Assembly (NCBI GenBank): GCA_030833185.1
Contig: JAURHQ010000016.1
Span: forward strand, 1 to 33,700
Length of the DNA stretch: 33,700 nt
Origin: Gammaproteobacteria bacterium
GTDB taxonomy: Bacteria; Pseudomonadota; Gammaproteobacteria; Ga0077536
Direction of reading: 5' to 3'
The position numbers and the translations under genes are program-made. The notes beneath the pieces are model-generated. The model was not told the origin of the DNA. It ran no database searches and saw only the letters and a list, made by a program, of their open reading frames with translations. Positions 15,561 to 32,861 of this stretch are shown piece by piece. Within the stretch, counting starts at the first letter, position 1. Each line of letters opens with the position of its first letter.

Positions 15561-15671
15561 GGGCGCGCCTGCAAAGGATTTATCGTTCAATGGAAGATAC
15601 GGTGGCCGACACCCGCGCGGCGCACCCGTCTCGCCGCCATCATGCGACTCTTTCTGCCACAGGTGGGTTCC

Positions 15672-16457: not shown

Positions 16458-17848
16458 CGCAAATACACCGCCTCGAAGCGGGCGGCCTGCCGGCCGCCTT
16501 CGTCAAACAGGTGGAGATACTGCCCCTCGACCGACCAGGTGCTGGTGGCTTTGAGCGCCTTAAGCAGGGCCGCCTCCTGATCCATGCCGTTGATACAGGC
16601 CATGCGGGTCGCCACCGTGCCGCGGAAAGCCAGCTTGCCGCCTTTCAGCGCATAGCGTCCCGCCAGCCGATTGCAGCCGCCGAAGCCCGTCAGTTCATTG
16701 GGCGCTTTGAGAATCAGATGCGCTTGGCCTTGGTCGTCACCGACCCGCACGCCCTTACCGTCGAGTCGGGTGAGTTTCCAGTAGGTGTTCTCCAGCGGCG
16801 GGGGCGTGCCGCCCAGCACGCAGCTTTCAGCCGGCCACAGGCCGTCGTATTCACGAATCACGAGCAGGGAGTCTGGTTTGCCGTCGGTCGGAAGTTCAGC
16901 TTCCATCGTCGCCAGCGAGGCGTGTCCGGCGGGTAACTTCAGGCGCTGGTAAGCGGCGTGCAGGGCGCGTTGCTCGCTGCTGTCGGTCAGCTGCCAGCGC
17001 TGGCCGCTTAAACACTCCGTGAAGCTCGCGCCGCGCTCGTCTTCTGCGTACATGCCGCGCACCAGACCGCGGAACACGAAGGGCTTATAGGCCGGCTGGC
17101 GGCGCAGTTCACGGTCGTCCCGTGACTCCCGCAGCTGGCCGACGATATCCAGCTTCAACAGCCCGTCTTCGTTGCTAATGCCCAGCATCATGGGCGCTTC
17201 GCTGGCGCCGACCAGCCGCAGCGCGCGGCGTTCTTCGTCCACTTCCCAACGGCCCAGCTGGTCCAGCCCCGGCGTGTCGTTACCGCCCAGCCAGGTCTGG
17301 CGCAGATACCACACGCGATTAGGCAGCAAATTAAGGTGATGACGGATCCCCTCGCAGGCCGCGCAGGACAGCACGCCCTCAAAACTTGCCGGCAGGTCCT
17401 CCATCGCCGCGGTCGCCGAATTCACCACCGAACTCGGCATATGCAGCAGTAATTTGAGCTCTTCCTCGTCTTCTTCGGTCAGCACCGGCACGAGGGTGTC
17501 GGTGGTGAAGAGCAGTTGCTCGCCCTCCATTATCCGGGCGCGCAGCGCGTAACGCCGGGACGGATCGACCTGCTGATCGTCGTAGCGCAGGCTGAAGGCG
17601 ATAGGGGGTTGGCCGGGCGACTCAAGCGCCAGCTTCGCGATGGTTTTCGCCGGCGCATCGGCCAGCGAGACATCTTCCAGCGTGACCTCCAGCCGCGCGC
17701 CGGGCGTCAGCGCAATGCGTTCCCGATAGGCCACCGTGCCGCGGATTTCGCCGGCCTCGGCCGTGGGTCCCGTCAGCCACAGGACGAACAGGCCGCACAG
17801 CAGGGTGGGCAACAGCAGGGGGCGGCTGCGGGCGAGACTCAGGGTCAT
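16454..17848 (-). CDS. periplasmic YbaY-like / NlpE-like / META-domain fusion protein
   Basis: 464 aa from ATG 17848 (GGAG upstream); the longer frame to 18043 would overlap the divergent gene and bury the signal peptide. Layout: signal peptide to about residue 32 (TAEA end, no lipobox); YbaY/YscW-like beta domain at about 33-122; NlpE-like domain at about 155-260 with a CXXC at C162-A-A-C165 in EGVLSCAACEGI; a linking region with SGQRWQL; and a C-terminal META (HslJ-like) domain from about 353 (ENTYWKLTRLDGK, NELTGFGGCNRLAGRY). NlpE senses envelope and surface stress; META proteins link to heat or antibiotic resistance. The combined role is inferred to be envelope homeostasis. Confidence 0.75.
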   Translation of the reverse strand: MTLSLARSRPLLLPTLLCGLFVLWLTGPTAEAGEIRGTVAYRERIALTPGARLEVTLEDVSLADAPAKTIAKLALESPGQPPIAFSLRYDDQQVDPSRRYALRARIMEGEQLLFTTDTLVPVLTEEDEEELKLLLHMPSSVVNSATAAMEDLPASFEGVLSCAACEGIRHHLNLLPNRVWYLRQTWLGGNDTPGLDQLGRWEVDEERRALRLVGASEAPMMLGISNEDGLLKLDIVGQLRESRDDRELRRQPAYKPFVFRGLVRGMYAEDERGASFTECLSGQRWQLTDSSEQRALHAAYQRLKLPAGHASLATMEAELPTDGKPDSLLVIREYDGLWPAESCVLGGTPPPLENTYWKLTRLDGKGVRVGDDQGQAHLILKAPNELTGFGGCNRLAGRYALKGGKLAFRGTVATRMACINGMDQEAALLKALKATSTWSVEGQYLHLFDEGGRQAARFEAVYLR

Positions 17849-18020
17849 TCCGATACTCCGGCTTGCAAGGGGACTGGGCGCGTGACCGGCAAGGCCGACC
17901 CACCGCACCGGCACCGTACGGGTTTTGACCACGCGCCGACAAGCCGGTGTGCGCTTTGACAGTCGCAAGGCCGGCTCTGCATAGTTCGCTTCCCTTCCGG
18001 CGCCGCTGCATCCATCGCTC

Positions 18021-19568
18021 ATGTCACGCCTCACCGATTTCATTCGCTACGACGACGCCCAACAGCACTGCAACACCGCCGCCCTGTGGGCGCTGTTCGA
18101 CGGGGACCGCGCGCAGTTCAACATCACCCACGAATGCATTGACCGCCACGTTGACGGCGAGCGGGTGGCGGTGATCGTGGCCCACGCCGACGGGCATGAC
18201 GAGGTGCTGACCTACGCCAGGCTTTCGCGCGATGCGGCGCGGTTCGCCCATTTCCTCGAGGCGCAGGGCATCGCGGCCGGCGACCGGGTGGCGGTGATGC
18301 TGGAACCGTCCTATGCCTTCTACGTCAGCATTTTCGGCGCTATCAAGCGCGGTGCGATCGCGGTACCGCTGTTCACCCTGTTTGGCCCGGATGGCCTGCG
18401 TTTGCGGGTGGCAGATTGTCAGCCCCGGATGCTGGTGACCAATCTCGCCAAGGCCGGGATCGTCGAGCCGCATGACGGGCTCAAGCTGGTCGTGGCGGAT
18501 GAGGCTTTTGAGGCCTTGCTAGCGGATTTCCCGACGCACTACACCAACCAGACGCGCGCCGACGATTTGGCGATGTATCAGTACACCTCGGGCACCACGC
18601 GCGAGTTGCCGGAGGCCGTGCATCACACGCAGCGCGCCATCGTTACGCTGATGCTGGCAGCGCTATACGGCACGGGTCTGCGGCCGGGCGATCGATATTT
18701 CTGCCCTTCGTCACCTGCCTGGGGCCACGGCCTGTGGCACGGCACGCTGGCGCCGTTGGCGCTGGGGCTGACCATCGGCGCGTATGCCGGCAAATTTGAC
18801 GCCGAGCGCCTGCTGCGCGCGCTGTCCGAGCATGGCTTCACCAATATCGCGGCCGCCGCGACCCACTACCGGATGATTCGCAATGCAGGGGTCGCTTCGC
18901 GCTATCCGCTCAAGTTGCAGAAGCTCTCGTTCACCGGCGAACCGCTGGATAGCGAAACGGCAGAGTTTCTGCAGCAGCAGTTCGGCATCGAGCCCTGCAG
19001 CATGTACGGCACGACCGAGATCGGGGTGGTGCTGGTGAGCTATCCCGGCGCGCCCGATTTCCCGGTCAAGCGCGGCTCACTGGGCAAGTCGGTGCCGGGG
19101 GTGAAGGTTGAAGTGCAGGATGCGGCTGGCCAGCCCTGTGCGCCGGGCGTGACGGGGGAAATGAAAGTCTGGCGCCGCGACGGCTGGGTGCCGACCCGCG
19201 ACCTCGGACGCATCGATGAAGACGGTTACTTTTGGCACGGCGGGCGTGCCGACGACGTCATCATCTCGGCCGGCTGGACGATGAGCGCGGTCGAAATTGA
19301 GGACAGCATCATGCAGCACCCGCAGGTGCTGGAGGCGGCGGTCATCGCGGTGCCCGACGCGCTGCGCGGGCAGGTGGCGAAAGCGTTTGTGGTGGCGCGC
19401 GGCGCCGGCTCAGCGGCGCTGGCGGAAGACATTCAGACGCTGGTGCGCAATCGACTGGCGCAGCACGAATATCCGCGGCAACTGGTCTTTGTTGCCGACC
19501 TGCCCAAAACGCCGGCGGGCAAAATCAATCGCAAGGTACTGCGCGAGCGCGAAGCGGCGGGCGCCTAG
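18021..19568 (+). CDS. AMP-forming acyl-CoA synthetase
   Basis: 515 aa. ANL-superfamily enzyme that activates a carboxylic acid via acyl-AMP to a CoA thioester. Motifs: YTSGTT at residues 188-193 followed by RELPEAVHHTQRAI; CSMYGTTEIG; RDLGRIDEDGYFWHGGRADD; and the conserved lysine K501 in PAGKINRKVL. The sequence resembles the benzoate-CoA ligase / medium-chain acyl-CoA synthetase branch more than long-chain FadD. The substrate cannot be fixed; the aromatic dioxygenase 4 kb upstream makes an aromatic or medium-chain acid plausible. It is divergent from the YbaY/NlpE/META gene. Confidence 0.9.
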   Translation: MSRLTDFIRYDDAQQHCNTAALWALFDGDRAQFNITHECIDRHVDGERVAVIVAHADGHDEVLTYARLSRDAARFAHFLEAQGIAAGDRVAVMLEPSYAFYVSIFGAIKRGAIAVPLFTLFGPDGLRLRVADCQPRMLVTNLAKAGIVEPHDGLKLVVADEAFEALLADFPTHYTNQTRADDLAMYQYTSGTTRELPEAVHHTQRAIVTLMLAALYGTGLRPGDRYFCPSSPAWGHGLWHGTLAPLALGLTIGAYAGKFDAERLLRALSEHGFTNIAAAATHYRMIRNAGVASRYPLKLQKLSFTGEPLDSETAEFLQQQFGIEPCSMYGTTEIGVVLVSYPGAPDFPVKRGSLGKSVPGVKVEVQDAAGQPCAPGVTGEMKVWRRDGWVPTRDLGRIDEDGYFWHGGRADDVIISAGWTMSAVEIEDSIMQHPQVLEAAVIAVPDALRGQVAKAFVVARGAGSAALAEDIQTLVRNRLAQHEYPRQLVFVADLPKTPAGKINRKVLREREAAGA

Positions 19569-19580
19569 GTCAGCGGCGGC

Positions 19581-20006
19581 TCAGGCGGCGGGCGGCTTGC
19601 GCGGCGCGTATACCACCAAGGTGCCGGCCAGCTTGTCGTGCAATGCCTGATGGCGCGGATCGAACACCAGCCACAGATAGCCCAGCCCCAAACTGAGCAG
19701 ACTAAGGATGCAGGCGAGCCCGCGTACGAGCGCGCGGCCGGCGCCGAGCGGCTCGCGCGTCTGCGCATCGACCACCCGTATCCCCAGCAGTAGCTTGCCC
19801 GGCGTGCCGCCGCGGCTTTTCCACATCATCGCGACCGCCAGCAAAACCAGCAGATGGAGCGCCGTTTGCCAATGACCCGGGTGACCGCCGGTAATTTGCA
19901 GCAGCGGCCCGTAGAGAAACGCAAAGGCCAGAAAGACGTCGAACAGCACGGCGGTAATCCGGATGCCGAAGGGCGCGGTGGGTAGTTCGGCGAGGGCGAC
20001 TGACAT
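19581..20006 (-). CDS. RDD-family membrane protein
   Basis: 141 aa from ATG 20006 with AGGAG upstream; longer forms have no membrane-protein character. The RDD signature is modified but recognisable: FGIRITAVLFDVFLA in the first membrane segment, then KSRGGTPGKLLLGIRVVDAQT, and a last segment ending HDKLAGTLVVY. Three hydrophobic segments. The function of the family is mostly unknown; some members act in ion or polar-compound transport. It converges on the acyl-CoA synthetase gene with a 12-nt gap. Confidence 0.85.
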   Translation of the reverse strand: MSVALAELPTAPFGIRITAVLFDVFLAFAFLYGPLLQITGGHPGHWQTALHLLVLLAVAMMWKSRGGTPGKLLLGIRVVDAQTREPLGAGRALVRGLACILSLLSLGLGYLWLVFDPRHQALHDKLAGTLVVYAPRKPPAA

Positions 20007-20148
20007 GACAACAACTCCTGCAGGGCGGGGCGGCGGGCGCGTATGGTTCACGTGAGATTGGGCCGCCGTCAACGACGAGGGCGTCAGGGGTGAATCCCGC
20101 CGCGCTTGCGGGCAGAATCCGCGCTTATCGAAACGCGCGGAGCGACGC

Positions 20149-21273
20149 ATGCAAGGCCTGATCGAATTTCTGCCCACCATCCGTCGCATCCATCACGGCC
20201 ACGGTGTGCTCGCCCAGGCCTTGCGCAGCGAACTCGCCGCCCTGCAGGTGCAAAAACCGCTGGTGCTGCTGGCCCGCGCGCTGCGTGGGACCGAAGTTGA
20301 AGCCATCCTGCACGATGCCGTGGGCGAGGCGCTGATCCACAGCGAATCCTTCGAGGAAGTGCCGCCGACCGCCGTGCTGGGCGCCGCCGCCGTGGCGCGT
20401 CGGGAAGCGGTTGATTCGGTCATCGCGGTGGGTGGCGGCAGCGCTATCGATACCGCCAAGGGCCTGCGCTTTGCGCTGGCTGCCGGGCTTGAAGACCCAG
20501 CCGCGCTGCTCCCCGCGATGGCGGGGGTCAGCCCTACCGCTGGCTGGCTGCCGCTGATTGCGGTACCCAGCACGCTCTCCGGGGCGGAGTACACCCGCAG
20601 TTTCAGCGTCAACGACCGCGCGTCGCGCATCAAGCGCTCGCACATGGGCAGCGGCGTGTCGGCCGCGGCGATTGTCTACGACCCGCTCGTGACGATGGCG
20701 ACGCCCGAGGCCTTGTGGCTGGGCACCGGCTTCGTGGCGCTGGACCATGCGCTGGAAGTCTACGTGGCCAGTGCCGCGCATCCGGTCGCAGATGCCCTGA
20801 AGTCCGAGGCTGCTGCGATGCTGTTTGACCGGCTGTCGGTCTCGCGCCAGCCGGACGCTGCCGCCGCGCGGCTCGATTGTTTTCTCGCGGCCTGGATGGC
20901 CGACCACTCGCCGCTGCGCACCCGTTCTACCGGCAGCAGCGGCACGCCCTGGAGCCATGTGCTGGCCTATGAACTGGCCGCAATCGCGGGCATTTCCTAC
21001 ACCGTGACGGCCAGCCTTACGCTGGCCAATTCGCTGCGCCTGCTGGCCGAGAATCGCCTTTGTGCCCAGCGTCAGGCCGCGCTCGCGGCGCGACTTGGTT
21101 TGCAGGAAAGCCTGCCCGATGCGGTCGACCGCTATGCCACCGAACTCGGGATGCCAATCACGCCGGCGCAGGCCGGACTGAGTGAGAGCGTGCTTGAGGA
21201 AGTGGCGCAGGCGACCGCAGCACGCGCCGCGCTGAGCGTGGAACGCTGCCGCCGCGTGCTGGGCGCCGCCTGA
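20149..21273 (+). CDS. iron-containing alcohol dehydrogenase homologue with altered metal site
   Basis: 374 aa. The N-terminal nucleotide-binding domain has GGGSAIDTAKG, and VPSTLSGAEYTRSF is typical of the maleylacetate reductase-like branch of group III alcohol dehydrogenases. In the C-terminal domain D199-H200 (ALDHALE) and H270 (WSHVLAYE) are present, but positions usually held by His in the following GHQLG and PHG motifs are Y274 and Y284. One expected metal ligand is therefore missing. It may use a different metal geometry or be metal-independent, as some maleylacetate reductase relatives are. Substrate unknown. Convergent with corA, 3 nt apart. Confidence 0.8.
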   Translation: MQGLIEFLPTIRRIHHGHGVLAQALRSELAALQVQKPLVLLARALRGTEVEAILHDAVGEALIHSESFEEVPPTAVLGAAAVARREAVDSVIAVGGGSAIDTAKGLRFALAAGLEDPAALLPAMAGVSPTAGWLPLIAVPSTLSGAEYTRSFSVNDRASRIKRSHMGSGVSAAAIVYDPLVTMATPEALWLGTGFVALDHALEVYVASAAHPVADALKSEAAAMLFDRLSVSRQPDAAAARLDCFLAAWMADHSPLRTRSTGSSGTPWSHVLAYELAAIAGISYTVTASLTLANSLRLLAENRLCAQRQAALAARLGLQESLPDAVDRYATELGMPITPAQAGLSESVLEEVAQATAARAALSVERCRRVLGAA

Positions 21274-21276
21274 GGC

Positions 21277-22248
21277 CTACAACCAGCCTTTCCGCCGAAA
21301 GTACCAGAACGGCGCGGCGACCGAGAGCAGCATCAGGCCGATCGCAAAGGGGTAGCCGAGCTGCCAGTCGAGTTCGGGCATGAACTTGAAGTTCATGCCG
21401 TAGAGGCTGGCGATCAAGGTGGGCGGCAGCAGCGCGACCGAGGCCACCGAGAACAGCTTGATGATCTTGTTCTGGTTGATGTTGATGAAACCGACGGTGG
21501 CATCCATCAGGAAGTTCAGCTTGTCGAACAGAAAGCCGGTGTGACTGTCGAGCGAGTCGATGTCACGCAAAATCTGGCGCGCGGTTTCGAACTGTTCGCT
21601 GGCCAGCAGCTTGCTGCGCAGGAGCGCGGAAATGGCGCGGCGGGTGTCCATCAGATTGCGCCGGACCTGACCGTTCAGGTCTTCTTCGCGGGCGATATCG
21701 GCCAGCACCTTGGCGGCGATTTCGTCATCCAGATTGGAGCCCAGCACCTGTTCGCTCAGCGCGTTCAGGCGCTGGTACACGCCTTCCAGCGCATCCGCCG
21801 AATATTCGACGTTGGCCGCATAGAGCTCCAGCAAGACGTCTTTCCCGTCCTCTACGAAGCCGGGCTGGCTGCGCGCGCGCAGCCGGAGCAGGCGAAACGA
21901 GGCGAAGTCTTCCGAGTGCACGCTGAACAGCACGTCGCCCTTGAGCACGAAGGACACGCGCACGTTTTCGCCGCCTTCATCGCCAAGCAAGAAGAAGTCA
22001 GAGTGAATGTGCAGTTCGCCGGTTTCCTCCACATAGAAGCGCGCGCTGGCTTCGATATCGGCGGCTTCCTCGTCTTCTTCCTCGTCCTGCGGCAGCTTGA
22101 AGCCAAAGGTTTCACGCGCCCAGGCACGCTCGGCGGTGGTTGCCTCGAAGAAGTCCATCCACACGCTGGAGGCGGCACGAAGTTCCTCCAGGGACTCGTG
22201 ATGCCACTGGCGGAGCCGGCCTGCTTCGAGGTAGTAGGCGTTGATCAT
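21277..22248 (-). CDS. corA: CorA-family magnesium/divalent cation channel
   Basis: 323 aa. Large acidic cytoplasmic N-terminal domain, a long helix (about residues 190-260), then two C-terminal membrane segments separated by the signature Y283-G-M-N-F287. The tail is basic (FRRKGWL). CorA pentamers import Mg2+ and Co2+ across the inner membrane. An acidic insertion (DEEEDEEAADIEAS) lies around residues 55-68. The start MINAYYL is typical. The SMP-30 gene is 25 nt downstream of the corA start on the same strand, so the two may be co-transcribed. Confidence 0.93.
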   Translation of the reverse strand: MINAYYLEAGRLRQWHHESLEELRAASSVWMDFFEATTAERAWARETFGFKLPQDEEEDEEAADIEASARFYVEETGELHIHSDFFLLGDEGGENVRVSFVLKGDVLFSVHSEDFASFRLLRLRARSQPGFVEDGKDVLLELYAANVEYSADALEGVYQRLNALSEQVLGSNLDDEIAAKVLADIAREEDLNGQVRRNLMDTRRAISALLRSKLLASEQFETARQILRDIDSLDSHTGFLFDKLNFLMDATVGFININQNKIIKLFSVASVALLPPTLIASLYGMNFKFMPELDWQLGYPFAIGLMLLSVAAPFWYFRRKGWL

Positions 22249-22273
22249 GCGGCGAAGCTCCGACGGCTACAGC

Positions 22274-23125
22274 TTACGGCGAACCTGCGGCCGGGGAGGA
22301 CACGCGCACGGTTTCGATCGCGCCGGCGGCTTTCTGCTGATGCAGATCTTCGATGGTGCCCGCGTAAGTCGACAGGAACAGCGTGCGGCCATCATCGCCG
22401 CCCAGCTGGCAGGCGACTGCCGCTTTGCCGGGGACGGTGATGAGATCGGTCACCGTGCCGCCTTCGGTCACGCGCACAAACTCGCTGGTCATGAACGAGG
22501 CCACCCAGATGCCGCCGGCCTGGTCGAGACAGATGCCGTCGGGCGTGCGTTCGCCCATCGCGGCCCACACGCGGCGGTTGGACAGGTCCCCGGCCGCATC
22601 GATATCGAAAGCGGTCAGCACATTGCCGAAGGTCTCGGCGACCACCAGCGTTTTGCCGCCGTCGGTGATCACAGCACCGTTCGGGAAGTTGAGACCGGTG
22701 GCCACGACGCGGGCGCTGCCGTCCGGGTCGACACGCACGAGGTCGGCCAGCTTGGCAGGTTCGCCGCTCAGCAGGTTGTAACCGAAATTACCGACGTAGC
22801 TGCGACCTTTGGCGTCGGCCACCATGTCGTTGCAGTCGCCGGTGGCGAAGGCGGACAGATCGGCATGCGTCACCAACTTGCCGTTGACCCGCTTCAGCAG
22901 TTGGCGGTTGGCCATCGACACCACCAACAGGGTGCCGTCGGGCAGAAAGCCGAGGCCGGACGGGCGCTCGGGCAAATCAAACAGCACTTCGCGCTGGCCA
23001 TCGGTGCTGACGGCGTAGGCTTTGAAGCCCCACATATCGGAAATCCACAGCCGGCCCTGATGCCAGCGCGGACCCTCCAGAAACACGAAGCCATCGGCGA
23101 GCAGGGTAGGGGTGTGCGTGTTCAT
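22274..23125 (-). CDS. SMP-30/gluconolactonase-family protein
   Basis: 283 aa, six-bladed propeller family. Metal-ligand positions are visible: E17 in FLEGPRW, Asn in LNFPNGAV, Asp in TPDGICLD. These enzymes hydrolyse lactones of sugar acids or other esters, using a divalent metal. GGAGAG upstream supports the start. No signal peptide, so cytoplasmic. It precedes corA on the same strand with 25 nt between them. The natural substrate is not predictable from the sequence. Confidence 0.88.
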   Translation of the reverse strand: MNTHTPTLLADGFVFLEGPRWHQGRLWISDMWGFKAYAVSTDGQREVLFDLPERPSGLGFLPDGTLLVVSMANRQLLKRVNGKLVTHADLSAFATGDCNDMVADAKGRSYVGNFGYNLLSGEPAKLADLVRVDPDGSARVVATGLNFPNGAVITDGGKTLVVAETFGNVLTAFDIDAAGDLSNRRVWAAMGERTPDGICLDQAGGIWVASFMTSEFVRVTEGGTVTDLITVPGKAAVACQLGGDDGRTLFLSTYAGTIEDLHQQKAAGAIETVRVSSPAAGSP

Positions 23126-23239
23126 GCGTCTCTCCTTCGAGTCGTGGCGGACGGTGGCGGATTGCCTCGCAGCTGCTCGTGCGCCGGGCCTTGCAAGCCG
23201 GCTTGAGGCCGCGGCTAGTCTAGCCGATCGTGTGCGCGA

Positions 23240-23620
23240 TCAGTCTTTACGAAACAGCGCATCAAGCGCCGAGCGGGCAGCAGAACTGTCGTCCGGCGAG
23301 CCTTTGCCGGCGCCGCTGTCGAGGCCAAACAGCGCTTCCAGACCCCGTGCCGCTTCGCCGCGCGCGGCGTCCGGGGCGACGTAGGCATCGGGGCGCGGTT
23401 TCAGATAGCCGCAGAAGTTGGCGCGCGCCTTGTTGACCACCCGTTCGGCCACAGGTTCGCGGCATTCATTGGCCACGCGGGGATCAAAAAACTCGCACAG
23501 CCGACACACATGCAGGTCGGCGCCGCATTGCCCGCAGGCCGCCGCCCGGGCCAGCGGCAGGGGCTCGTCGTCCAGTGCCTGTCCGCAGCGCCAGCAGCGC
23601 AGGTTGTCGATTTTGTGCAT
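23240..23620 (-). CDS. conserved cysteine-rich (zinc-ribbon-like) protein of unknown function
   Basis: 126 aa from ATG 23620 (MHKIDNLRCWRCG). Cysteines come in pairs: C9/C12, C29/C32, C39/C42, then C53 and C70, with H37 in ADLHVC; this would bind one or two zinc ions. The segment ECREPVAERVVNKARANFCGY is, from memory, conserved in gammaproteobacterial hypothetical proteins. The C-terminal third is low in complexity and rich in Ala and Ser. It lies 19 nt downstream of dadA on the same strand and is probably co-transcribed. Function unknown. Confidence 0.75.
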   Translation of the reverse strand: MHKIDNLRCWRCGQALDDEPLPLARAAACGQCGADLHVCRLCEFFDPRVANECREPVAERVVNKARANFCGYLKPRPDAYVAPDAARGEAARGLEALFGLDSGAGKGSPDDSSAARSALDALFRKD

Positions 23621-23639
23621 GGGGCGCGCGTCCGACCGT

Positions 23640-24902
23640 TTAGCCAAACCGGGCCAGTTGATAGGGCGCCGGATTGAGCGCCGGCGACCGGCGCGCGATT
23701 TGGTCGGCCACCAGCTGGCCGGCGCCGGCGGCCAAGGTCCAACCCAGCTGGCCGTGGCCGGTATTGAGGTAGAGATTGTGCAGCGGCGTGGGACCCATCA
23801 GGGGAACGCCGTCGGCGCTCATGGGACGCAAACCACACCAGCGGACCGCCGCCTCGCGATCGAGATGCGGCGCAAAATCCGGATAGAGCTGGGTAACGAG
23901 CGAAAACAGGTTGTTGATGCGGCCCGGCGTCAGCGTGAGGTCGAAGCCTGTGAACTCGGCCGTACCGGCCACCCGCAGCCGATCGCCCAGCGGGCAGACC
24001 GCCGCGTGCAGGGAGTCGTCGATCACGGGCAGGCTGGGGCGTCCCGCCCAGCCATGCGCGAAGAGCGTCAGTGAATAGCCTTTCACCGGGCGCAGCGGCA
24101 GTTTCAAGCCAATGCCGGCCGCCAGCGGCGCGGACCACGGACCGGCCGCCAGCACGTAAGCGTCCGCCGTTTGCAGCCCTCTGGAACCCAGCACGCCTTC
24201 GATCCGGTCGCCACTGCGGAGCAGGCGGTCGATCTTCACGCCGTATTCGATGCGCACCCCGCGGGCGACACAGGCCCGCGCCAACAGGGCACAGAAGGCT
24301 TGCGCATCGCCGGCCTCATCGTCCGGGAAGTAGAGGCCGCCGGCGAGCAGGCTTTCGATGCGGCCGAGCGCCGGTTCGAGTTCTACCGCCCGCTGGCCGT
24401 TCACCGCCTCGAAGCGCACGCCCCATTCGCTCAATTGGCGGCACATCGTGGCCGCGCCGGCGACGGCTTCGGGGGAACGGAAGAGCTTCAGCGTGCCGCG
24501 CGCGCTGTAGTCGTAATCGCTGCCGACGGCCGCGCGGAGTTCGCGCATACAGGCCAGCGAGTAGGCCGCCAGGCGGGCGTTTTGTTCAAAATTGTGGAGA
24601 TAACGGTCGGGGCGCGAATGCCGCACAAACTGCATGCCCCACCCTAGCAGCGACGGCAGCGCCTTGTAGCGCACCAGCAGCGCCGCATCTTCTTTGCCCA
24701 GCATTTTCAGCGCGTGCCAGAACACGCCGGGCTCGTTCCAGGGATTGGCCTGACTGGCGTGCAGCATGCCGCCGTTGGCAAAACTGGTGGCGCGCCCGGG
24801 GCCGATCTCCTGTTCCAGCAAGCTTACGCTCAGCCCATGGCGGCGCAGGCTGAAGGCCGTCGTGAGGCCCAGCAGGCCCCCACCAATCACCACCACATGC
24901 AT
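23640..24902 (-). CDS. dadA: D-amino acid dehydrogenase-like FAD oxidoreductase (DadA type)
   Basis: 420 aa, full length for DadA. The N-terminal dinucleotide-binding motif VVVIGGGLLGLTTAF is followed by TSFANGGMLHASQANPWNEPG, a DadA hallmark. The C-terminal part has RPMSADGVPLMGPT and NTGHGQLGWTLAAGAGQLVADQI. DadA oxidatively deaminates D-amino acids (classically D-alanine) at the inner-membrane face, giving electrons to the respiratory chain. Its first 113 codons are present again, diverged, at 27304-27642. It is the left partner of the original divergent dadA/glk pair. Confidence 0.9.
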   Translation of the reverse strand: MHVVVIGGGLLGLTTAFSLRRHGLSVSLLEQEIGPGRATSFANGGMLHASQANPWNEPGVFWHALKMLGKEDAALLVRYKALPSLLGWGMQFVRHSRPDRYLHNFEQNARLAAYSLACMRELRAAVGSDYDYSARGTLKLFRSPEAVAGAATMCRQLSEWGVRFEAVNGQRAVELEPALGRIESLLAGGLYFPDDEAGDAQAFCALLARACVARGVRIEYGVKIDRLLRSGDRIEGVLGSRGLQTADAYVLAAGPWSAPLAAGIGLKLPLRPVKGYSLTLFAHGWAGRPSLPVIDDSLHAAVCPLGDRLRVAGTAEFTGFDLTLTPGRINNLFSLVTQLYPDFAPHLDREAAVRWCGLRPMSADGVPLMGPTPLHNLYLNTGHGQLGWTLAAGAGQLVADQIARRSPALNPAPYQLARFG

Positions 24903-25058
24903 TGGGCTTCATCCGCGAAAAACAGGCCCTATCTTAGCCGTCGGCAAGGCCTGCCGGCGACCGTGATGACGGCCACGGGATGACGCTGCGTGCGCCGCCA
25001 CGCACAAAGCCGACGAGTGCGCGCAGCGAGGAACGGGGAATGAAAATCGGCGGCGATG
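24564..25058. repeat. left copy of the dadA-glk junction direct repeat (495 bp)
   Basis: Colinear with 27304-27801 apart from one 3-nt indel upstream of dadA. It covers the first 113 codons of dadA, the whole intergenic region and the first six codons of glk. By eye the dadA part differs at roughly one base in six, whereas the intergenic part differs at only about ten positions in 155. Confidence 0.9.
25040..25058 (+). pseudogene. 5' stub of glk
   Basis: ATG plus codons for KIGGD, identical to the start of intact glk at 27783, with the same upstream region and ribosome-binding site. Homology stops at 25058/25059; the frame then reads through unrelated sequence. The expression signals may therefore still drive a junk open frame. 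Confidence 0.8.
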
Positions 25059-25361
25059 CAGTTGGTCGCGCCGCTGATAGGCTAATGCCCCACCAGACCG
25101 GAGGTGCCTGGCGCGCAAGCGAAAATCAGGCGAAGGACGGAGGGGTGCTGGGTGAAGCGAAAACTGCGAGCGGCCGGCGAGCGGCCCATGGACGTCGTGG
25201 GCTACGCCGGTCTGTTGGCCGCGCGCGTTGAGCGCACGCGCTTCGAATTGCTGGGGCGGTTGCTGGGCTACGCCGTCCCCTCCACCTTCGTCGCGGTCCC
25301 ACTGACGGGACTGCTGCTCAGCGCCACCGGCACGATGGCACGTTTCGCCGTCTGGGCCGTC
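25059..25361. other. left part of the insert, no recognised gene
   Basis: Unrelated to dadA or glk. One frame is open on the plus strand (from about 25144 through 25368 and beyond) and would encode a short hydrophobic stretch (GYAVPSTFVAVPLTGLLLS). I recognise no family, and the frame runs on antisense through the IS91-like remnant, so I do not call it a gene. Confidence 0.4.
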
Positions 25362-25626
25362 TCAAGGATAGGAAGGAAAAAGCCCCTCCCATACCGAGAC
25401 CAGCTCTGCCGTGCGCAGCACCAGCGCCTTGCGCCCGGCCTGCGGTCCCACCGCGATGCGCTACGTCACCGCGCTGCAGCAGTCCCATCTGCTCCAGCGC
25501 CCGACCGACCCGCTCGGCGATCTGTTGCACCATGTGTTAGAACGCCTCGCGCTCCGGCGCCCTCACCCGCCTGAAACGCAGCCCGCCGTCGGGGCGCGGC
25601 GCGTACACGCTGTCCAGGCAGAGCAT
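25362..25626 (-). pseudogene. IS91-family (Y2) transposase fragment
   Basis: Minus-strand fragments in two frames recall the middle of IS91-type transposases: LDSVYAPRPDGGLRFRRVRAPE, then an in-frame TAA, then HMVQQIAERVGRALEQMGLLQR, and, after a frame change, RIAVGPQAGRKALVLRT. The stop and the shift show it is dead. No catalytic tyrosines are included. IS91 elements move by rolling-circle replication and can carry neighbouring DNA. Confidence 0.6.
25369..25411. repeat. 43-nt direct repeat, left copy
   Basis: Matches 26964-27006 at 38 of 43 positions, same orientation. On the minus strand it contains a GGGAGGGG head followed by an imperfect hairpin, similar to REP palindromes, and it overlaps the end of the IS91-like fragment. 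Confidence 0.75.
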
Positions 25627-25689
25627 GCGACGCCCTCTGTCGGTCCGGATAGCGTCGATCCGGACGGTGCGACGTTCTGATGCCGGATT

Positions 25690-26129
25690 TCCGCGCCCAT
25701 GTCGCTCGTGGCGAAAGCCTGATGCCCGTCGGCCAACTCCGTTTCACGCGGGCCGAGCCGCGAGCGATAGCCCTGCGCCGAGCGCGCCACCTTCATCAGC
25801 GTGCAAGCCCGCCGCTGCGACACGCCCTTGCCTACCGCATACGTCACCTGCTTCCGGCTAGCCGGCACGCTCACCATTTTTTCGGCGATTTCCTTCATCT
25901 CGATCTCGAGGTCGCGCTCGGCCACGAGTTTCTTCAGGCGCGCGTTCTCCTGCTCGAGCTGCTTCAGCCGCCGAAAATATTCGGGCTGGAACGTCCCGAA
26001 CCGCGTCTTCCACGTGTACACCGTCTGGCCGCTGACCTTGTGCCGCTTCGCGACCGCCGGAACCCTGTCACGATCAGCTTCCCGGATGACCGCGACCATC
26101 TGCTCTTCGGTGAACCTCGACTTGCGCAT
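25690..26129 (-). pseudogene. IS3-family transposase remnant (OrfA plus start of OrfB)
   Basis: From ATG 26129 (AGGGAG upstream) the first 85 or so residues are a complete IS3-type OrfA: helix-turn-helix MRKSRFTEEQMVAVIREADR, then VSGQTVYTWKTRFG, and the leucine-zipper QLEQENARLKKLVAERDLEIE. OrfB-like sequence (MVSVPASRKQV, SQRRACTLMKVARSAQGYRS) continues in the same frame where a frameshift would normally separate the two, so a small deletion fused them. Homology fades near 25735; the whole DDE catalytic domain is missing. Not active. Confidence 0.85.
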
Positions 26130-26203
26130 GCTCCCTCTCTTTCCGGGGGCCAGCCTCTCACGTAATCGGTGGTCGGAAGTACCGGGAGCAGGTCAGGGGG
26201 TCA
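26130..26203 (-). mobile_element. probable left end of the IS3-type element
   Basis: Read on the minus strand, sequence from 26203 begins TGACCCCCTGACC and leads into OrfA 74 nt later, the usual distance and the TG start expected for IS3 ends. The matching right end is gone. The TGA at 26203-26201 also serves as the stop codon of the neighbouring hydrolase gene. Confidence 0.45.
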
Positions 26204-26929
26204 GGCCAGCTGCAATAGTTTTTCTGTCAATTCCGCAGGCATGTCCACCATAATGTTGTGTCCACATGGCATTTTGCTCAATGTCCACCCGGGCGCACCT
26301 TCGACCTGTTTTGCAAAATAACGAAACGGGCTGGGATCCCAATTGTCGGCAAGAATATAGTGACGGTTCTGCAAGCTATTGACTGACCCTGAGAGCAATG
26401 CGGGGCATTCAAAGGTCGCCAGAGCTTGCGGACGTGCGCGCCGATCAACCCATGCGCGCTTTTCTTCAACGACGTTAAACAACTCAGCCGGTATCGGCTT
26501 CATCAAGCCGCATCCATTCTCAGCGGCAGAATCTCTGAAGCTTCCAATAAAGAATGCGGCTGTCTCAGGAGCTAGTGCTTTGTGCAACAAGCTAATCAGC
26601 GAATCCCCGTTTCCAGGCACGTATGCGTCGATATACACCAAATGGCGAATGCGATGAGTTAGCCGGTCTGCGACGCCCGTGGCAACCATGCCGCCATAGC
26701 TGTGACAGACAAGAATGATCTCTTCGATCTCCTCTGCTTCGATACAGCCGCACACATCACGAATATGAGTTTCGAGCGTGATGTTTTCGCCAGATTGATG
26801 CTGCCTTTCTCCAAGGCCTGAATGAGTGGGTGTATAAACTGTATGACCTGCAGCGCGTAAAGCATCGGCTACGGCTCTGTAGCACCATCCGCCGTACCAG
26901 GCCCCGTGAACAAGTACATAATTAGCCAT
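26201..26929 (-). CDS. alpha/beta-fold hydrolase (EstC / plant methylesterase-like)
   Basis: 242 aa. N-terminal oxyanion motif VLVHGAWYGGWCYRAV, nucleophile elbow CHSYGG, and the catalytic His in MPCGHNIMVDMP: a complete Ser/Asp/His-type hydrolase related to the EstC / salicylate-methylesterase group. It probably hydrolyses small esters; the substrate is unknown. It is clearly more AT-rich than its neighbours and lies inside the insert between the 43-nt direct repeats, next to transposase remnants, so it is probably horizontally acquired cargo. Its stop falls at the inferred IS3 end, so the original C-terminus may have been slightly longer. Confidence 0.88.
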   Translation of the reverse strand: MANYVLVHGAWYGGWCYRAVADALRAAGHTVYTPTHSGLGERQHQSGENITLETHIRDVCGCIEAEEIEEIILVCHSYGGMVATGVADRLTHRIRHLVYIDAYVPGNGDSLISLLHKALAPETAAFFIGSFRDSAAENGCGLMKPIPAELFNVVEEKRAWVDRRARPQALATFECPALLSGSVNSLQNRHYILADNWDPSPFRYFAKQVEGAPGWTLSKMPCGHNIMVDMPAELTEKLLQLA

Positions 26930-27303
26930 ACGTATTCTCCAAAACTACGCAAAAATAAGAGGGTAGGAAGGATAAATCCCCTCCCAAGCCGAGACCAGAT
27001 CTGCCGGTCCCTGCCTTAGGGCCTCGGACGGGAATCTGACCCCACATTTGCCCCGCCTGTCTTCATTCGGGGAATCTGCAGCGCCCTTCGCAGCCCGAAC
27101 GTTTCCCCGGAACCCTGCGCGCAGCGCGGCTCCCTGCAGATCCGTGATCGCAGCCTCCCTGCCCCTGATTCACCCGCCTTCCCAGGTGCCGCTCACGCGC
27201 GCACCGGCGGCCCTGTCGACGGGGGCGAGTGAGCCCGTGCTTGCCTCCGCCTTCCCTCTCACATGAGCCCGGCTCCGCTCGATCAGCCCCGGCTCCTCGA
27301 TTA
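26930..27303. other. right part of the insert, no gene seen
   Basis: 374 bp with no credible coding frame. It contains the right copy of the 43-nt repeat and, on the minus strand, a GGGGTCAGATTCCCGTC string (about 27026-27042) that recalls ends of small mobile elements; this is from memory only. The dadA fragment begins at 27304. Confidence 0.4.
26964..27006. repeat. 43-nt direct repeat, right copy
   Basis: Partner of 25369-25411 (38/43 identical). It lies just upstream of the hydrolase start, so the pair brackets the transposase remnants and the hydrolase. Confidence 0.75.
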
Positions 27304-27642
27304 GCCGGCGAGGCGCGTGTTCTTTTCAACGTTCTGTCGATAACGGTCGGGGCGGGAGTTGCGGACGAAGCGCATGCCCCAGCCGAGCAGCGAGGGCAGG
27401 GCGCCGAACCGCACCAGCAGCGCGGCGTCTTCGCGCCCGAGCATTTTCAGCGCGTGCCAGAACACGCCGGGTTCATCCCAGGGATTGGCCTGACTGGCGT
27501 GCAGCATGCCGCCTCTGGCGAAACTGGTGGCACGGCCGGATGCGCTGAGCTGTTCGAGCAAGGTGACCGTCAGCCCGTGACGGCTCAGGCTCAAGGGTGT
27601 CGTCAGGCCCAGCAGGCCCCCGCCAATCACCACCACATGCAT
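27304..27642 (-). pseudogene. truncated second dadA allele (first 113 codons)
   Basis: Encodes 113 residues about 80% identical to the start of intact dadA (for example TSFARGGMLHASQANPWDEP against TSFANGGMLHASQANPWNEP), ends after NTRLAG, and meets a TAA at once at the junction. The frame is still open with no internal stop, so truncation is recent or the segment arrived already diverged. It keeps the FAD-binding motif but lacks substrate and C-terminal FAD domains and cannot be functional. Confidence 0.9.
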
Positions 27643-27801
27643 TGGGCTTCATCCGCCGCGACAAACAGGCCCTGTCTTAGCCATCGGCAAGGCCTGCCGG
27701 CGACTGTGATGCCGGCCACGGGATGACGCTGCGTGCGCCGCCAAGCACAATGCCGATGAGCGCGCGCAGCGAGGAGCGGGGAATGAAAATCGGCGGCGAT
27801 G
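27304..27801. repeat. right copy of the dadA-glk junction direct repeat (498 bp)
   Basis: Counterpart of 24564-25058. Here the glk side is intact and the dadA side is truncated. Confidence 0.9.
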
Positions 27802-28733
27802 TGGGCGGCACCAAGACCCTGCTGGAGGCGCGCGCCGGTGCGTTCACCCTGCTTAAACAGCGCTATCAGAACGACGAGTTTGCCGATTTCGATGCGCTAC
27901 TCGCCGAGTTTCTCTCGACGCTGCGGCAACGCCATCGCGCGCCCGTCACGGCGACCTGTCTCGCCGTGGCAGGACCGATTGCGGCCCAGGCCGCCCGCCT
28001 GACCAATCGCCCGGCATGGCTGCTGGAGGCCGCCGGTCTGAGCGCGCGCCACGGGTTGGGGCCAACCATGTTGGTGAATGATTTTGTCGCCGCGGCCGCC
28101 GGCCTCGGCGGACTCGACGCAGCCGAGACGCGGCTGCTGCAGACGGGCCATGGCGATGCGGGCGGGCCGGTGCTCGCGCTGGGGCCGGGGACCGGACTCG
28201 GCGTTGCCATGGTTGAAGGGGAGCATGTCGTGGCCAGCGAAGGCGGGCATATCGGCTTCGCCCCGTTTGATGCGGAATCTACCGCGCTATGGCAGCTGCT
28301 CGGCGCGCCGGGCCGGCGCGTCACCACCGAGCAGGTGGTGAGCGGCACGGGGCTCGCCGCCTGCTATCGTTTGACCACGGCGATGTCGACCCTGCCGATC
28401 GAACCCGCTGAGGTTGTTGCCCGCGCCACCGGCGGCGAGCCTGCCGCGACGGACGCGGTGCGTCTGTTCGCGCGCTGCTTTGGCGCGGTGGCAGGGGATC
28501 TGGCGCTGGTGTTTCTGGCGCGTGGTGGGGTGTATCTGGCCGGCGGCATCACGCCGCGCCTGCCGCCCGAGCTATTTGATGAGCCCTTTCTTGCCGCATT
28601 TGGCGCCAAGGCCGAACACGCCGCGCTGGTGGCGGGGATGCCGGTGCTGGCCGTGATGAGCGAGGAACTGGGGCTGCGCGGTGCAGTTCATCTCGCCATG
28701 CAGAGCGGTCGTGAGGAGAAGACCCATGTATGA
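27783..28733 (+). CDS. glk: glucokinase
   Basis: 316 aa from ATG 27783, preceded by GAGGAGCGGGG; the longer frame from 27723 has no family character. It phosphorylates glucose with ATP. Motifs: phosphate loop IGGDVGGTKT, catalytic D100 in LVNDF, LGPGTGLGVAMV, and the substrate and zinc-region motif ASEGGHIGFAPF. Length matches the E. coli Glk (ROK-distinct) group. Its 3' end overlaps the next gene's start. It is the right partner of the original divergent dadA/glk arrangement, and its upstream region is duplicated at 24903-25039. Confidence 0.95.
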   Translation: MKIGGDVGGTKTLLEARAGAFTLLKQRYQNDEFADFDALLAEFLSTLRQRHRAPVTATCLAVAGPIAAQAARLTNRPAWLLEAAGLSARHGLGPTMLVNDFVAAAAGLGGLDAAETRLLQTGHGDAGGPVLALGPGTGLGVAMVEGEHVVASEGGHIGFAPFDAESTALWQLLGAPGRRVTTEQVVSGTGLAACYRLTTAMSTLPIEPAEVVARATGGEPAATDAVRLFARCFGAVAGDLALVFLARGGVYLAGGITPRLPPELFDEPFLAAFGAKAEHAALVAGMPVLAVMSEELGLRGAVHLAMQSGREEKTHV

Positions 28734-29076
28734 GGCGAGACATCATCGCCCCCTGACGGTCCGCGGTTTCCTGCGGCGCATGCTCAGCCACAGCCTGGCG
28801 GCGCTGGGTTTGCTTATTGTTTCACTCGGCGCCGGCGTCGCGGGCTACATGTACTACGAGCATCTGTCGGCAGTGGATGCCTTTCTGAATGCCGCGATGC
28901 TGTTGGGCGGCATGGGACCGGTCAATCCACCCGCCAGCGCCGCTGGCAAGGTGTTTGCCGGCTGCTATGCGCTGTATGCCGGGCTGGTGTTTATCGTCAC
29001 CGCGGCGATCATGCTGACACCGGTCCTGCATCGCATTCTGCATCGCTTTCACTGGTCGTCCGACGACAATGCCTGA
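28726..29076 (+). CDS. small two-helix membrane protein, pore-loop-like segment
   Basis: 116 aa from ATG 28726, overlapping the glk stop by 8 nt, with GAGGAG upstream, so translation is coupled to glk. Two hydrophobic helices (about residues 22-44 and 78-102) flank a stretch with FLNAAMLLGGMGPVNPP, placed where 2-TM potassium channels carry a pore loop and filter, though no TVGYG motif is present. The C-terminus is basic and His-rich (LHRILHRFHW). I recall similar unannotated proteins. Function unknown; channel-like is only a suggestion. Confidence 0.75.
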   Translation: MYEARHHRPLTVRGFLRRMLSHSLAALGLLIVSLGAGVAGYMYYEHLSAVDAFLNAAMLLGGMGPVNPPASAAGKVFAGCYALYAGLVFIVTAAIMLTPVLHRILHRFHWSSDDNA

Positions 29077-29141: not shown

Positions 29142-30695
29142 ATGCCCCCTTCAAGCCTGATTGACCGCCGCCGCTTTCTCCGTAGGCTGCTTGCGCTCCC
29201 CCTGCTGGCCGCTACGTCGCCGGTGTGGAGCAAGCCGCGCTATGCGAGCAATCCCTTTACGCTGGGCGTTGCGTCGGGCTATCCGCTGGCCGATGGCGTG
29301 GCGCTATGGACGCGCCTCGCGCCGCAACCGCTGGCGCCCGACGGCGGCCTGCCGCCTGCGGTGTTGCCGCTGCGCTGGGAGGTGGCGGAAGACGAGCAGT
29401 TCAAACGGATTGCCGCGCACGGCGAGGCTTATGCCGAGCCGGCATTCGGCCATTCGGTGCACGTGGAAGTAAGGGGGCTTGAAGCGGCGCGGCCGTACTT
29501 CTATCGGTTTCATAGCGGCGCGGCGACCAGCGCCATCGGGCGGACCGCGACCGCGCCGAAGGTAGGCGACCCGGTGCAGCAGCTGCGCTTTGCGTTTGCG
29601 TCCTGCCAGCAGTACGAGCAGGGCTATTACGGCGCCTATCGCCACATGGCGGCGAGCGCGCCCGATCTCATCATTCACCTTGGCGATTACATCTACGAAA
29701 GCGCCTGGGGCGAGCACCGCGTGCGCTATCACGAAGGTCCGGAGCCGGTGGCTTTAACGGACTACCGCGCCCGCTACGCGCGCTATCGCTCGGACCCCGA
29801 TTTGCAGGCGGCGCACGCGGCCTGTCCGTGGCTGATGGTGTGGGACGACCACGAAGTGGAGAACGACTACGCCGATGCGCAATCCGAAAACCTCGACCAA
29901 CCCGAGTGGTTTCTGGCGCGACGCGCGGCGGCCTATCAGGCCTGGTACGAACACATGCCGGTGCGGCGCACGATGCTGCCGTTCGGGCCGCATCTGCAGC
30001 TCTACACGCGGCTCGCCTACGGTCAGCTGGTGAACTTCAATTTGCTCGACGACCGCCAGTACCGAAGCCCGCAGCCCTGCCCGCGACCGGGCCGCGGCGG
30101 CGCGGCGGTCATCGAGAACTGCGCCGCGCGCGAAGACCCCGCCGCCACCCTGCTGGGGGCGCGGCAGGAAGCCTGGCTTGCAGCCGGTCTGGCGCAAAGC
30201 AAGGCGCGCTGGAACGTGTTGGCCCAGCAAACCCTGATGGCGCAGTCCGACGGCAAAGTGGGGGAGGGTCAGCGGTTTTACTCCGACGGCTGGGACGGCT
30301 ATCCCGCCGCGCGGGCGCGCTTGTTCGATCAGATCGCAGGCAGCAAGGTCGCGAACCCGGTGGTCATTGGCGGCGACGTCCACGCCTTCTGGGTGGCGGA
30401 TCTGAAACGCGATTTCAATCGCCCGGACTCGCCCACCATTGCCTCAGAGTTTGTCGGCAGCTCGATTACCTCGCGTCCGCCGCCGGAGTCGATTCTGGAA
30501 GCCGCCAAGACGGAAGGCCCACATATCAAGCTCGCCACCGGCAAATATCGCGGCTATGTCGCGATGACGCTGACGCCCGATTTACTGACGGCAGAACTTC
30601 GCGCCGTCGACGACCACCGCGACCCGGCCACCGGCATCCGCACGCTTTCGACCTGGGTGGTGGAAGACGGCAAGCCCGGGCCGGTGGCGGGCTAG
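29142..30695 (+). CDS. phoD: PhoD-family alkaline phosphatase
   Basis: 517 aa. A twin-arginine signal (DRRRFLRRLLALPLLAATSP) marks export in folded form. The PhoD-like N-terminal domain (FTLGVASGYPLADGVALWTRL) precedes the metallophosphatase core: FASCQQYEQGYYGAYRHMA, HLGDYIYE, WDDHEVENDYA, LLDDRQYR and GGDVHAFW, which hold the Fe3+/Ca2+ ligands. It hydrolyses phosphomonoesters and phosphodiesters in the periplasm or outside. No Pho box was identified. Convergent with glgB with 9 nt between stops. Confidence 0.95.
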   Translation: MPPSSLIDRRRFLRRLLALPLLAATSPVWSKPRYASNPFTLGVASGYPLADGVALWTRLAPQPLAPDGGLPPAVLPLRWEVAEDEQFKRIAAHGEAYAEPAFGHSVHVEVRGLEAARPYFYRFHSGAATSAIGRTATAPKVGDPVQQLRFAFASCQQYEQGYYGAYRHMAASAPDLIIHLGDYIYESAWGEHRVRYHEGPEPVALTDYRARYARYRSDPDLQAAHAACPWLMVWDDHEVENDYADAQSENLDQPEWFLARRAAAYQAWYEHMPVRRTMLPFGPHLQLYTRLAYGQLVNFNLLDDRQYRSPQPCPRPGRGGAAVIENCAAREDPAATLLGARQEAWLAAGLAQSKARWNVLAQQTLMAQSDGKVGEGQRFYSDGWDGYPAARARLFDQIAGSKVANPVVIGGDVHAFWVADLKRDFNRPDSPTIASEFVGSSITSRPPPESILEAAKTEGPHIKLATGKYRGYVAMTLTPDLLTAELRAVDDHRDPATGIRTLSTWVVEDGKPGPVAG

Positions 30696-30704
30696 GGGGC
30701 GCGC

Positions 30705-32861
30705 TTACCCCGCCTGCGCCAGCACCACCGCCGCCAGCGGCGGCAGGTCGATCAGCACCCGCGCGGGCTGGCCATGCAGTGGCTGGGCGATTGCGTCGGC
30801 CGCGGGCACGCCCACATCGCTGCCGCCATAGTGGCGAGAGTCGCTGTTCAGCAGGACTTCCCAGCGGCCGGCGGCGGGCACGCCCACGCTGAAGGCCGGG
30901 CGAGGGATAGGGGTGAAATTGAAGACCACCACCACGCAGGCGCCGTTGCGGGCGCGGCGCAGAAAGGACAGCGTGGATTGCGCGGCGTCGTTGCAGTCCA
31001 GCCACTGGAAGCCACCGGGTTCGTGGTCAAGTTCGTGCAGCGCCGCGCAGTTGCGGTAGCGCAGATTCAAGTCGCGCTGGAGGGCGCGGATGCCGGCGTG
31101 TTCTGGCCGCTGCGCTTCGGCCCAGTCGAGTTCGCGCGCCTCCGACCATTCGCGGGTCTGGCCGAACTCGTTGCCCATGAAGCCAAGCTTTTTGCCCGGC
31201 GAAGTCAGCTGCCAGACCAGTAGCAGCCGGAGATTGGCAAAGCGCTGCCAGGAGTCGCCGGGCATCTTGCCCAGCAGGCTGCCTTTGCCGTGCACCACTT
31301 CGTCGTGCGAGAGCGGCAGCATGAAACACTCGCTGTAGGCGTACATCTGGCCGAAGGTCAGCAGCGCGTGGTGATAGCGGCGATGAACGGGATCAAGCTG
31401 CAAATAGCGCAGGCTGTCGTTCATCCAGCCCATGTTCCATTTGAGCGAGAAGCCCAGCCCGCCCTCCGCAATCGGATGGGTCACGCGTGGCCAGGCGGTG
31501 GATTCTTCGGCGATGGTCAGCGCGCCCGGGAAGCGGGTGGCCACCATCTCGTTCAGCGCGCGCAGGAAGTCGATGGCCTCCAGATTTTCGCGACCGCCGT
31601 GGATGTTGGGCGTCCACTCGCCGGGCTTGCGCGAGTAGTCGAGGTAGAGCATGGACGCCACCGCATCCACTCTGAGGCCGTCGAAATGAAAAGCCGACAG
31701 CCAATAGTTGGCGCTGGACAAGAGGAAGCTCACCACTTCGCGCCGCCCGTAGTTGAAGCTGCTGGTGCCCCAGTCGGGATGGCGCTGCAGGCGCGGGTCG
31801 GCGTGTTCGTAGAGCGGCGAGCCGTCGAAATGCGCGAGCGCGCCATCGTCCGCCGGAAAATGACCGGGCACCCAGTCCAGTAACACGCCGATCCCGGCCT
31901 GATGGCAGGCGTCGATCAGCGCGCGCAGTCCGTCGGCCGCGCCCTGTCGCGCGCTGGGCGCGAAAAAGCCGGTGCTTTGATAGCCCCAGGATTCGTCCAG
32001 TGGATGCTCGGTGATGGGCAGGAGCTCGATGTGCGTATAACCCTGTTCGCACACATAGGGCAGCAGGCGGGCGGCGAGTTCGGTCCAGCTGTAGAAGCGC
32101 CCGTCCGGGTGACGCAGCCAGGAGCCGGCGTGCAGTTCGTACACGTTCATCGGCGCCTGACGCCAGTTGCGGGTCGCGCGCGCCGTCATCCAGCCCGCGT
32201 CCTGCCACGCAAATGCGCTGTCGGCGGTGATGAGCGAGGCCGTGTCGGGACGCAGTTCGCTGGCGCGCGCGTAAGGGTCGGCGCGCAGCAGCACCTGACC
32301 GCTGTGGCGCGCGCGCAGTTCAAACTTGTAACGCTGTCCGGGCGCAAGGGCGGGGATGAACAGCTCCCAGACGCCCGAGACGCCCAGACTTTGCAGCAGA
32401 TGATGCCGCCCGTCCCAGCCATTCCAGTCGCCCACCACGCTGACCCGCTCGGCCGCCGGCGCCCACACCCGGAAGCGCACGCCGCCGACGCCGCCGCGGC
32501 TCTCGGGCTGCGCGCCGAGCAGGCGGTGGCTTTCGTAGAGCCTGCCTTCGGCAAAGAGATACAGGTCGTCCTGACTGGCGGTGGGCGGGAAGGCGTACGC
32601 ATCGAAACACTCGCGACCATCCACCCGCAGCCGCCAAGCCTTGCTTGGCGCGCGCCGCCGGCGGAGTTCAAACAGTCCGGCGGGATGCACACAGCGCATG
32701 GCCTGCGCGCCACGGGCGCTCAGCAGTTCGACCGCTTGCGCGCCCGGTTGCCATGCGCGAATCACCCATTGCGCACCGGCCGGGTGCACGCCGAGCAGCC
32801 CGAAGGGGTCGTAATCGCGCGTTTCCAGCAGACGGGTGATGTGATCAGCTTGGGCAGACAT
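30705..32861 (-). CDS. glgB: 1,4-alpha-glucan branching enzyme
   Basis: 718 aa from ATG 32861. N-terminal GlgB domains (DYDPFGLLGVHP; VGGVRFRVWAPAAERVSVVGDWNGWDGR) are followed by a GH13 barrel: ELHAGSW, GYTHIELLPITEHP, nucleophile D399 in FDGLRVDAVASMLYLDYSR, acid/base Glu in TIAEESTAW, and LSHDEVVHGKGSLLGKMPGD. Length matches the full GlgB with the N1 domain. It makes alpha-1,6 branches in glycogen. It is divergent from a GH57 gene; other glg genes are not in view. Glycogen genes are classic CsrA targets. Confidence 0.97.
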   Translation of the reverse strand: MSAQADHITRLLETRDYDPFGLLGVHPAGAQWVIRAWQPGAQAVELLSARGAQAMRCVHPAGLFELRRRRAPSKAWRLRVDGRECFDAYAFPPTASQDDLYLFAEGRLYESHRLLGAQPESRGGVGGVRFRVWAPAAERVSVVGDWNGWDGRHHLLQSLGVSGVWELFIPALAPGQRYKFELRARHSGQVLLRADPYARASELRPDTASLITADSAFAWQDAGWMTARATRNWRQAPMNVYELHAGSWLRHPDGRFYSWTELAARLLPYVCEQGYTHIELLPITEHPLDESWGYQSTGFFAPSARQGAADGLRALIDACHQAGIGVLLDWVPGHFPADDGALAHFDGSPLYEHADPRLQRHPDWGTSSFNYGRREVVSFLLSSANYWLSAFHFDGLRVDAVASMLYLDYSRKPGEWTPNIHGGRENLEAIDFLRALNEMVATRFPGALTIAEESTAWPRVTHPIAEGGLGFSLKWNMGWMNDSLRYLQLDPVHRRYHHALLTFGQMYAYSECFMLPLSHDEVVHGKGSLLGKMPGDSWQRFANLRLLLVWQLTSPGKKLGFMGNEFGQTREWSEARELDWAEAQRPEHAGIRALQRDLNLRYRNCAALHELDHEPGGFQWLDCNDAAQSTLSFLRRARNGACVVVVFNFTPIPRPAFSVGVPAAGRWEVLLNSDSRHYGGSDVGVPAADAIAQPLHGQPARVLIDLPPLAAVVLAQAG

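Follow-up and report, generated by a model that had tools for sequence, protein, structure and literature searches.

Known Systems and the dadA/glk Locus

Interspecies allelic replacement gives rise to mosaic genes, and the ordinary route to a replacement tract of this kind is RecA-dependent exchange between the homologous flanks of linear DNA. In Bacillus subtilis transformation falls logarithmically to a divergence of 15%, with a second phase beyond this value (PMC6382021). In the T6SS orphan-immunity arrays of Vibrio cholerae an imported module is located beside the remnants of displaced or duplicated genes, and homology-facilitated insertion leaving gene remnants has been proposed for these arrays (PMC5361080). 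Campbell integration places two partial copies in direct orientation around unrelated DNA, and in E. coli incoming DNA can circularise after conjugation and integrate by a single crossover (PMC3240628).

The locus described here is in a window of 33,700 nucleotides, the whole stretch of DNA that was analysed, which forms contig C77 of a draft genome in 743 contigs. The nearest genome is the sister G008 (MAG HTM.54; contig JALRCR010000084.1). The locus shares with interspecies allelic replacement a divergent tract, sharp edges in conserved coding sequence and a 97%-identical backbone, but here non-homologous cargo as well as a partial duplication come with the tract, and the divergence of 19-25% between donor and recipient genes lies where B. 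subtilis transformation is strongly reduced (PMC6382021). As in the V. cholerae arrays (PMC5361080), an imported module is found next to gene remnants; however, the tract appears homologous at either outer edge, an illegitimate junction is seen at the insert ends only, and no functional array of orphan genes has been formed. The two partial direct copies around unrelated DNA are those of Campbell integration, from which the locus differs in its mosaic copies, its foreign downstream gene, its second outer breakpoint and an insert in which no replicon or integrase was found. The IS91/ISCR rolling-circle elements, put forward in the original prediction as carriers of adjacent DNA, have a transposase signature that was not found in the insert, where only an IS3-family remnant was recognized. 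The locus is a recombination scar of an already known type, and probably arose when DNA of another, unsampled species of the genus was imported by homologous recombination.

Repeat Anatomy of the Locus

The arrangement of genes and repeats around the split is as follows.

23640-24902, minus strand, dadA, full-length D-amino acid dehydrogenase of 420 amino acids (NF001933, above cut-off)
24564-25058, no strand, left repeat of 495 nt, comprising dadA codons 1-112, the spacer and six glk codons; mosaic
25040-25057, plus strand, glk stub of six codons (MKIGGD), read from the sequence
25059-27303, no strand, 2.2-kb insert flanked by the left and right repeats
27301-27642, minus strand, dadA 5' stub, an ORF of 113 codons of apparent donor type, 81% amino acid identity to the left dadA
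27304-27801, no strand, right repeat of 498 nt, comprising apparent donor dadA codons 1-112, the spacer and the glk start
27783-28733, plus strand, glk, full-length glucokinase of apparent donor type (PF02685, full length)
28726-29076, plus strand, small ORF after glk of apparent donor type, 76.7% nucleotide identity to G008, no Pfam match
29142-30695, plus strand, phoD-like phosphatase, ORF intact across the right breakpoint (PF09423, E 3e-113)

The original prediction described two direct repeats of 495 and 498 bp that are colinear except for a 3-nt indel, the left one joining the full dadA to a six-codon glk stub and the right one joining a 113-codon dadA stub to the full glk. Pairwise alignment bears out both the repeats and this assignment of their ends, with an identity of ~85% overall and the single 3-nt indel placed immediately upstream of dadA. 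One end of each repeat is truncated, and the length and similarity of the pair far exceed chance. The identity is distributed unevenly, being ~79% in the dadA part and ~94% in the spacer and glk start, with differences at 10 of the 173 spacer sites (5.8%) and a longest exact match of 36 nt. A single circle recombining with a single native locus does not yield repeats that resemble each other more in their noncoding than in their coding part. Of the 64 differences between the dadA stub and the left dadA, 41 fall at third codon positions, indicating that most of this divergence built up while dadA was functional. The longest ORF for glk begins at 27723, 20 codons too early, and homology favors the ATG at 27783.

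Eight further genomes of the genus were compared. In seven of them (G008, G003, G001, G002, G004, G005 and G006) dadA and glk form an uninterrupted, divergent pair without the insert, and in G007 no glk was found beside dadA. The comparison with relatives suggested in the original prediction thus comes out in favor of an interruption by foreign DNA, and the adjacency of the two genes in the relatives makes the split a derived feature of the window genome. Two of the genus relatives, L070 and L073, carry the record title "Klebsiella pneumoniae" but fall within this uncultured gammaproteobacterial genus, and these labels are probably wrong.

Two Breakpoints Relative to the Sister Genome

The identity to G008 is 96.8% over 14711-24970 (~97% up to 24882, the last ~80 nt of the match being poor) and is again ~97% over 29225-31025, where the G008 contig ends. 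Between these segments the identity is 81% for the dadA stub, 55% for the spacer, 75% for glk and 77% for the next ORF. The boundaries are located as follows.

24883-24893, no strand, left breakpoint interval, bounded by the last site at which the left copy equals G008 (24882) and the first site at which the left copy consistently equals the right copy (24893)
about 29214-29225, no strand, right breakpoint interval, inside the phoD-like gene at its signal-peptide end, with 97% identity to G008 resuming rightward

The left breakpoint falls in the opening codons of dadA, a stretch that is nearly identical in the left, right and G008 sequences. It is defined in a three-way alignment of these sequences by diagnostic sites, meaning sites at which the left copy agrees with one only of the right copy and G008. 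Up to 24892 these sites split 59:3 for G008 over the right copy, and beyond it the split is 4:52, now favoring the right copy (p ~8e-25). The left repeat thus reads as a mosaic of a G008-like dadA half and a spacer/glk half resembling the right repeat, and this composition accounts for the coding parts being 79% and the noncoding parts 94% alike. With 97.6% amino acid identity to its G008 counterpart, the full-length dadA appears to be native apart from its first few codons.

The two switches in identity (97%, then 55-81%, then 97%) are sharp, lie 4.3 kb apart and are of the kind that delimits a replacement tract. Because both flanks are ~97% G008-like and the DNA between the breakpoints is not, the intervening 4.3 kb is foreign, and the right-hand glk, the next ORF and the spacer are judged from their sequences not to be native. 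The draft genome contains one glk only, the native allele having been displaced and not kept; a search of the draft for a second copy found none, leaving 27783-28733 as the sole glk. In ~30 kb of other DNA from the same genome the identity to G008 is mostly 94-100% with short dips only, so that the 4.3-kb tract is exceptional within this sample. The dips include L119, where the identity falls to 84-88% at ~801-1200 and 5601-6000, possibly marking minor mosaic patches or fast-evolving genes.

The 2.2-kb Insert

The elements recognized within the insert are listed below.

25365-25411, no strand, 47-nt direct repeat, copy 1, 87% identical to copy 2
25563-26129, minus strand, truncated IS3-family transposase, OrfA and the beginning of OrfB (NF033516, PF01527)
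26201-26929, minus strand, alpha/beta hydrolase gene, intact ORF (PF12697, E 4e-22)
26960-27006, no strand, 47-nt direct repeat, copy 2, 87% identical to copy 1

The transposase remnant matches PF01527 above the cut-off (E 7e-12) and NF033516 over residues 1-129 of 369 (E 9e-14; 51.5 bits, with the cut-off at 160), and this partial match with a score below the cut-off is consistent with a truncated transposase. The ORF stops about one-third into the NF033516 model and does not amount to an intact, DDE-bearing element, and no paired inverted repeats are reported within the insert. The original prediction had instead seen an IS91-type remnant here, an identification that is not upheld, as a Pfam search for an IS91/Y2 (HUH) transposase in ten reading frames of the insert and its two larger proteins gave no match and the remnant is an IS3-family OrfA.

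The hydrolase gene has a GC content of 51-54% compared with 65-70% for the surrounding region. Its nearest relatives are encoded on Rhodococcus plasmids (67% amino acid identity) and in G328, a distant gammaproteobacterium (63%), and none was found on viral contigs. A plasmid search with the insert returned matches for the IS3 and hydrolase parts only, with both insert ends unmatched. The insert ORFs yield the IS3 remnant and the hydrolase and no plasmid or replication function, replicon or integrase. No further copy of the insert is present in its own genome, and searches of the genus and family gave no whole copy and only IS3-like stretches with a few very short pieces. The region of the locus has no Rfam matches, and no tRNA attachment site is located at the locus, the only tRNA of the window being 13 kb distant. 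The 47-nt direct repeats bracket the IS3 remnant and the hydrolase gene, and their 27-nt core is absent elsewhere in the window; they may be the mark of an older insertion or belong to a donor repeat family.

Donor, Direction, and Timing of Exchange

In the dadA tree the left copy pairs with G008 (0.936) at a distance of about 0.04, and the dadA stub is the sister to that pair. The window glk is the long-branched sister of the G008 glk, and both the stub and the window glk are placed inside the genus, nearer to G008 than to G003 or G001, which points to an unsampled congener as the donor lineage. No genus member exceeds 76% overall identity to the 4.3-kb tract, and glk reaches at best 74% amino acid identity in a scan of named GTDB genomes, the same value as between the window and G008 proteins. 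The donor is apparently such an unsampled congener with genes 19-25% diverged.

Neither the window glk nor the G008 glk is closer to G003 (68.2 and 68.8%), and glk alone therefore gives no direction of transfer between recipient and donor. The window carries a G008-like dadA in addition to a donor-type stub that is contiguous with the donor-type spacer, glk and ORF. With this extra stub, the smallest number of events is needed if the window genome was the recipient, and we infer that the import was directed into it. The neutral divergence between the window species and G008 is 6.8% at fourfold sites and 4.6% in noncoding DNA. The 5.8% difference between the two spacers is close to these values, and the spacers thus parted long ago. 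They may have done so within the donor prior to the import, between two donor strains, or soon after the window species and G008 had diverged.

Origin of the Split Locus

Both breakpoints, the donor character of all counterparts between them and the ancestral uninterrupted order are observed. In the proposed mechanism a donor tract of ~4.3 kb would have taken the place of the spacer, glk and next ORF that the recipient possessed, with the exchanges located in conserved coding sequence at the first dadA codons (24882-24893) and at the signal-peptide end of phoD (~29214-29225). The tract would have delivered a working donor glk together with cargo held between two donor-type spacers, namely the 2.2-kb insert and the donor dadA 5' stub, whereas the recipient dadA would have been retained and is now joined to the donor spacer. 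Uptake would have occurred by RecA-dependent exchange of linear DNA, and homology-facilitated illegitimate recombination could have made the insert ends. One import of an already split tract requires the fewest events in the window genome. That the split was present in the donor is the most likely option, with about an even chance of being correct, and the split could otherwise have arisen in the window genome through a further import or through one crossover joining donor-type sequences, so that a Campbell step may have taken part.

The strongest competing explanation, although clearly the less probable one, involves two events in which a donor-type replacement of glk and its flanks was followed by a second molecule of the donor lineage that added the insert and dadA stub, entering through the single crossover of a circle or through homology-facilitated illegitimate recombination. 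The six-codon glk stub would then be a remnant of the first import. The 5.8% spacer difference is as expected of two donor strains, the anatomy fits a Campbell product, and precedents are available in the mechanism proposed for the T6SS remnant arrays (PMC5361080) and in the integration of circles after conjugation (PMC3240628). Against this, two imports from one unsampled lineage at one place are required, and the insert yielded no plasmid or replication function. Exchange at the divergence separating donor and recipient is rare and dependent on local identity. It is conceivable, if rather doubtful, that import was serial, the first replacement from the donor lineage providing the local near-identity that aided a second molecule carrying the hydrolase insert at the same site; if this were true, a species barrier of ~20% divergence would have been crossed stepwise.

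An assembly chimera, joining reads of two congeners from one metagenome, is improbable. The draft is in 743 contigs with 2.81% contamination, and the longest exact match between left and right, of 36 nt, would suffice only at the smallest assembler k-mer sizes, such shared runs being short for the usual final k values. A chimera would demand that the one backbone had been wrongly joined at two separate points, with the reading frame kept each time, and in the bin no second glk was found, nor any copy of the tract or of its flanks from a second species. It is less probable still that G008 imported a foreign spacer-glk-ORF segment and that the window glk is native with the insert and dadA stub received separately. 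The distances to G003 leave glk unpolarised, as this explanation allows, but independent breakpoints at the dadA start would be required in two lineages, as well as a second source with a dadA 79% but a spacer 94% identical to the native ones.

The mechanism favored in the original prediction, a circle carrying a dadA-glk fragment that entered a native and otherwise unchanged locus by a single crossover, stands as a description of form, as the anatomy is formally that of a Campbell product. The direct partial repeats are each truncated on one side, and relatives have the two genes side by side. As the whole history it is not supported, in view of the non-native glk, ORF and spacer, the mosaic left repeat, the phoD breakpoint and the missing IS91 clue. 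The outer halves of the repeats do not run into native flanks on both sides, the right half continuing into the donor-type glk and next ORF with G008-like DNA resuming only in phoD, and the insert ORFs show no sign of a circular replicon or of excision or replication functions. A single crossover of this kind does not predict a second breakpoint in phoD, spacer halves 94% alike beside coding halves at 79%, or a right-hand glk and next ORF unlike those of G008 between flanks that resemble it. It is contradicted unless G008 swapped its glk at nearly the same two breakpoints, and is highly improbable. A simple tandem duplication, which the original prediction had already considered inadequate, is ruled out by a left dadA that is G008-like and a right stub that is not.

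The locus is thus likely an ordinary scar of horizontal exchange and not a plasmid-like circle dropped into a native locus. Under the preferred import from a congener, the odd repeat-insert-repeat structure would be what is left of a gene exchange that bridged ~20-25% divergence in an uncultured genus, replaced a core sugar kinase and brought in an extra hydrolase gene. Partial repeats of this kind are better compared with a sister genome on both flanks before they are read as the integration of a circle.

Other Features of the Window

Away from the locus, the region at ~11222-11800 contains a tRNA-Ser (gct) followed by short repeats. An 80-nt unit that begins at ~11660 is present in many copies across the same genome and G008.
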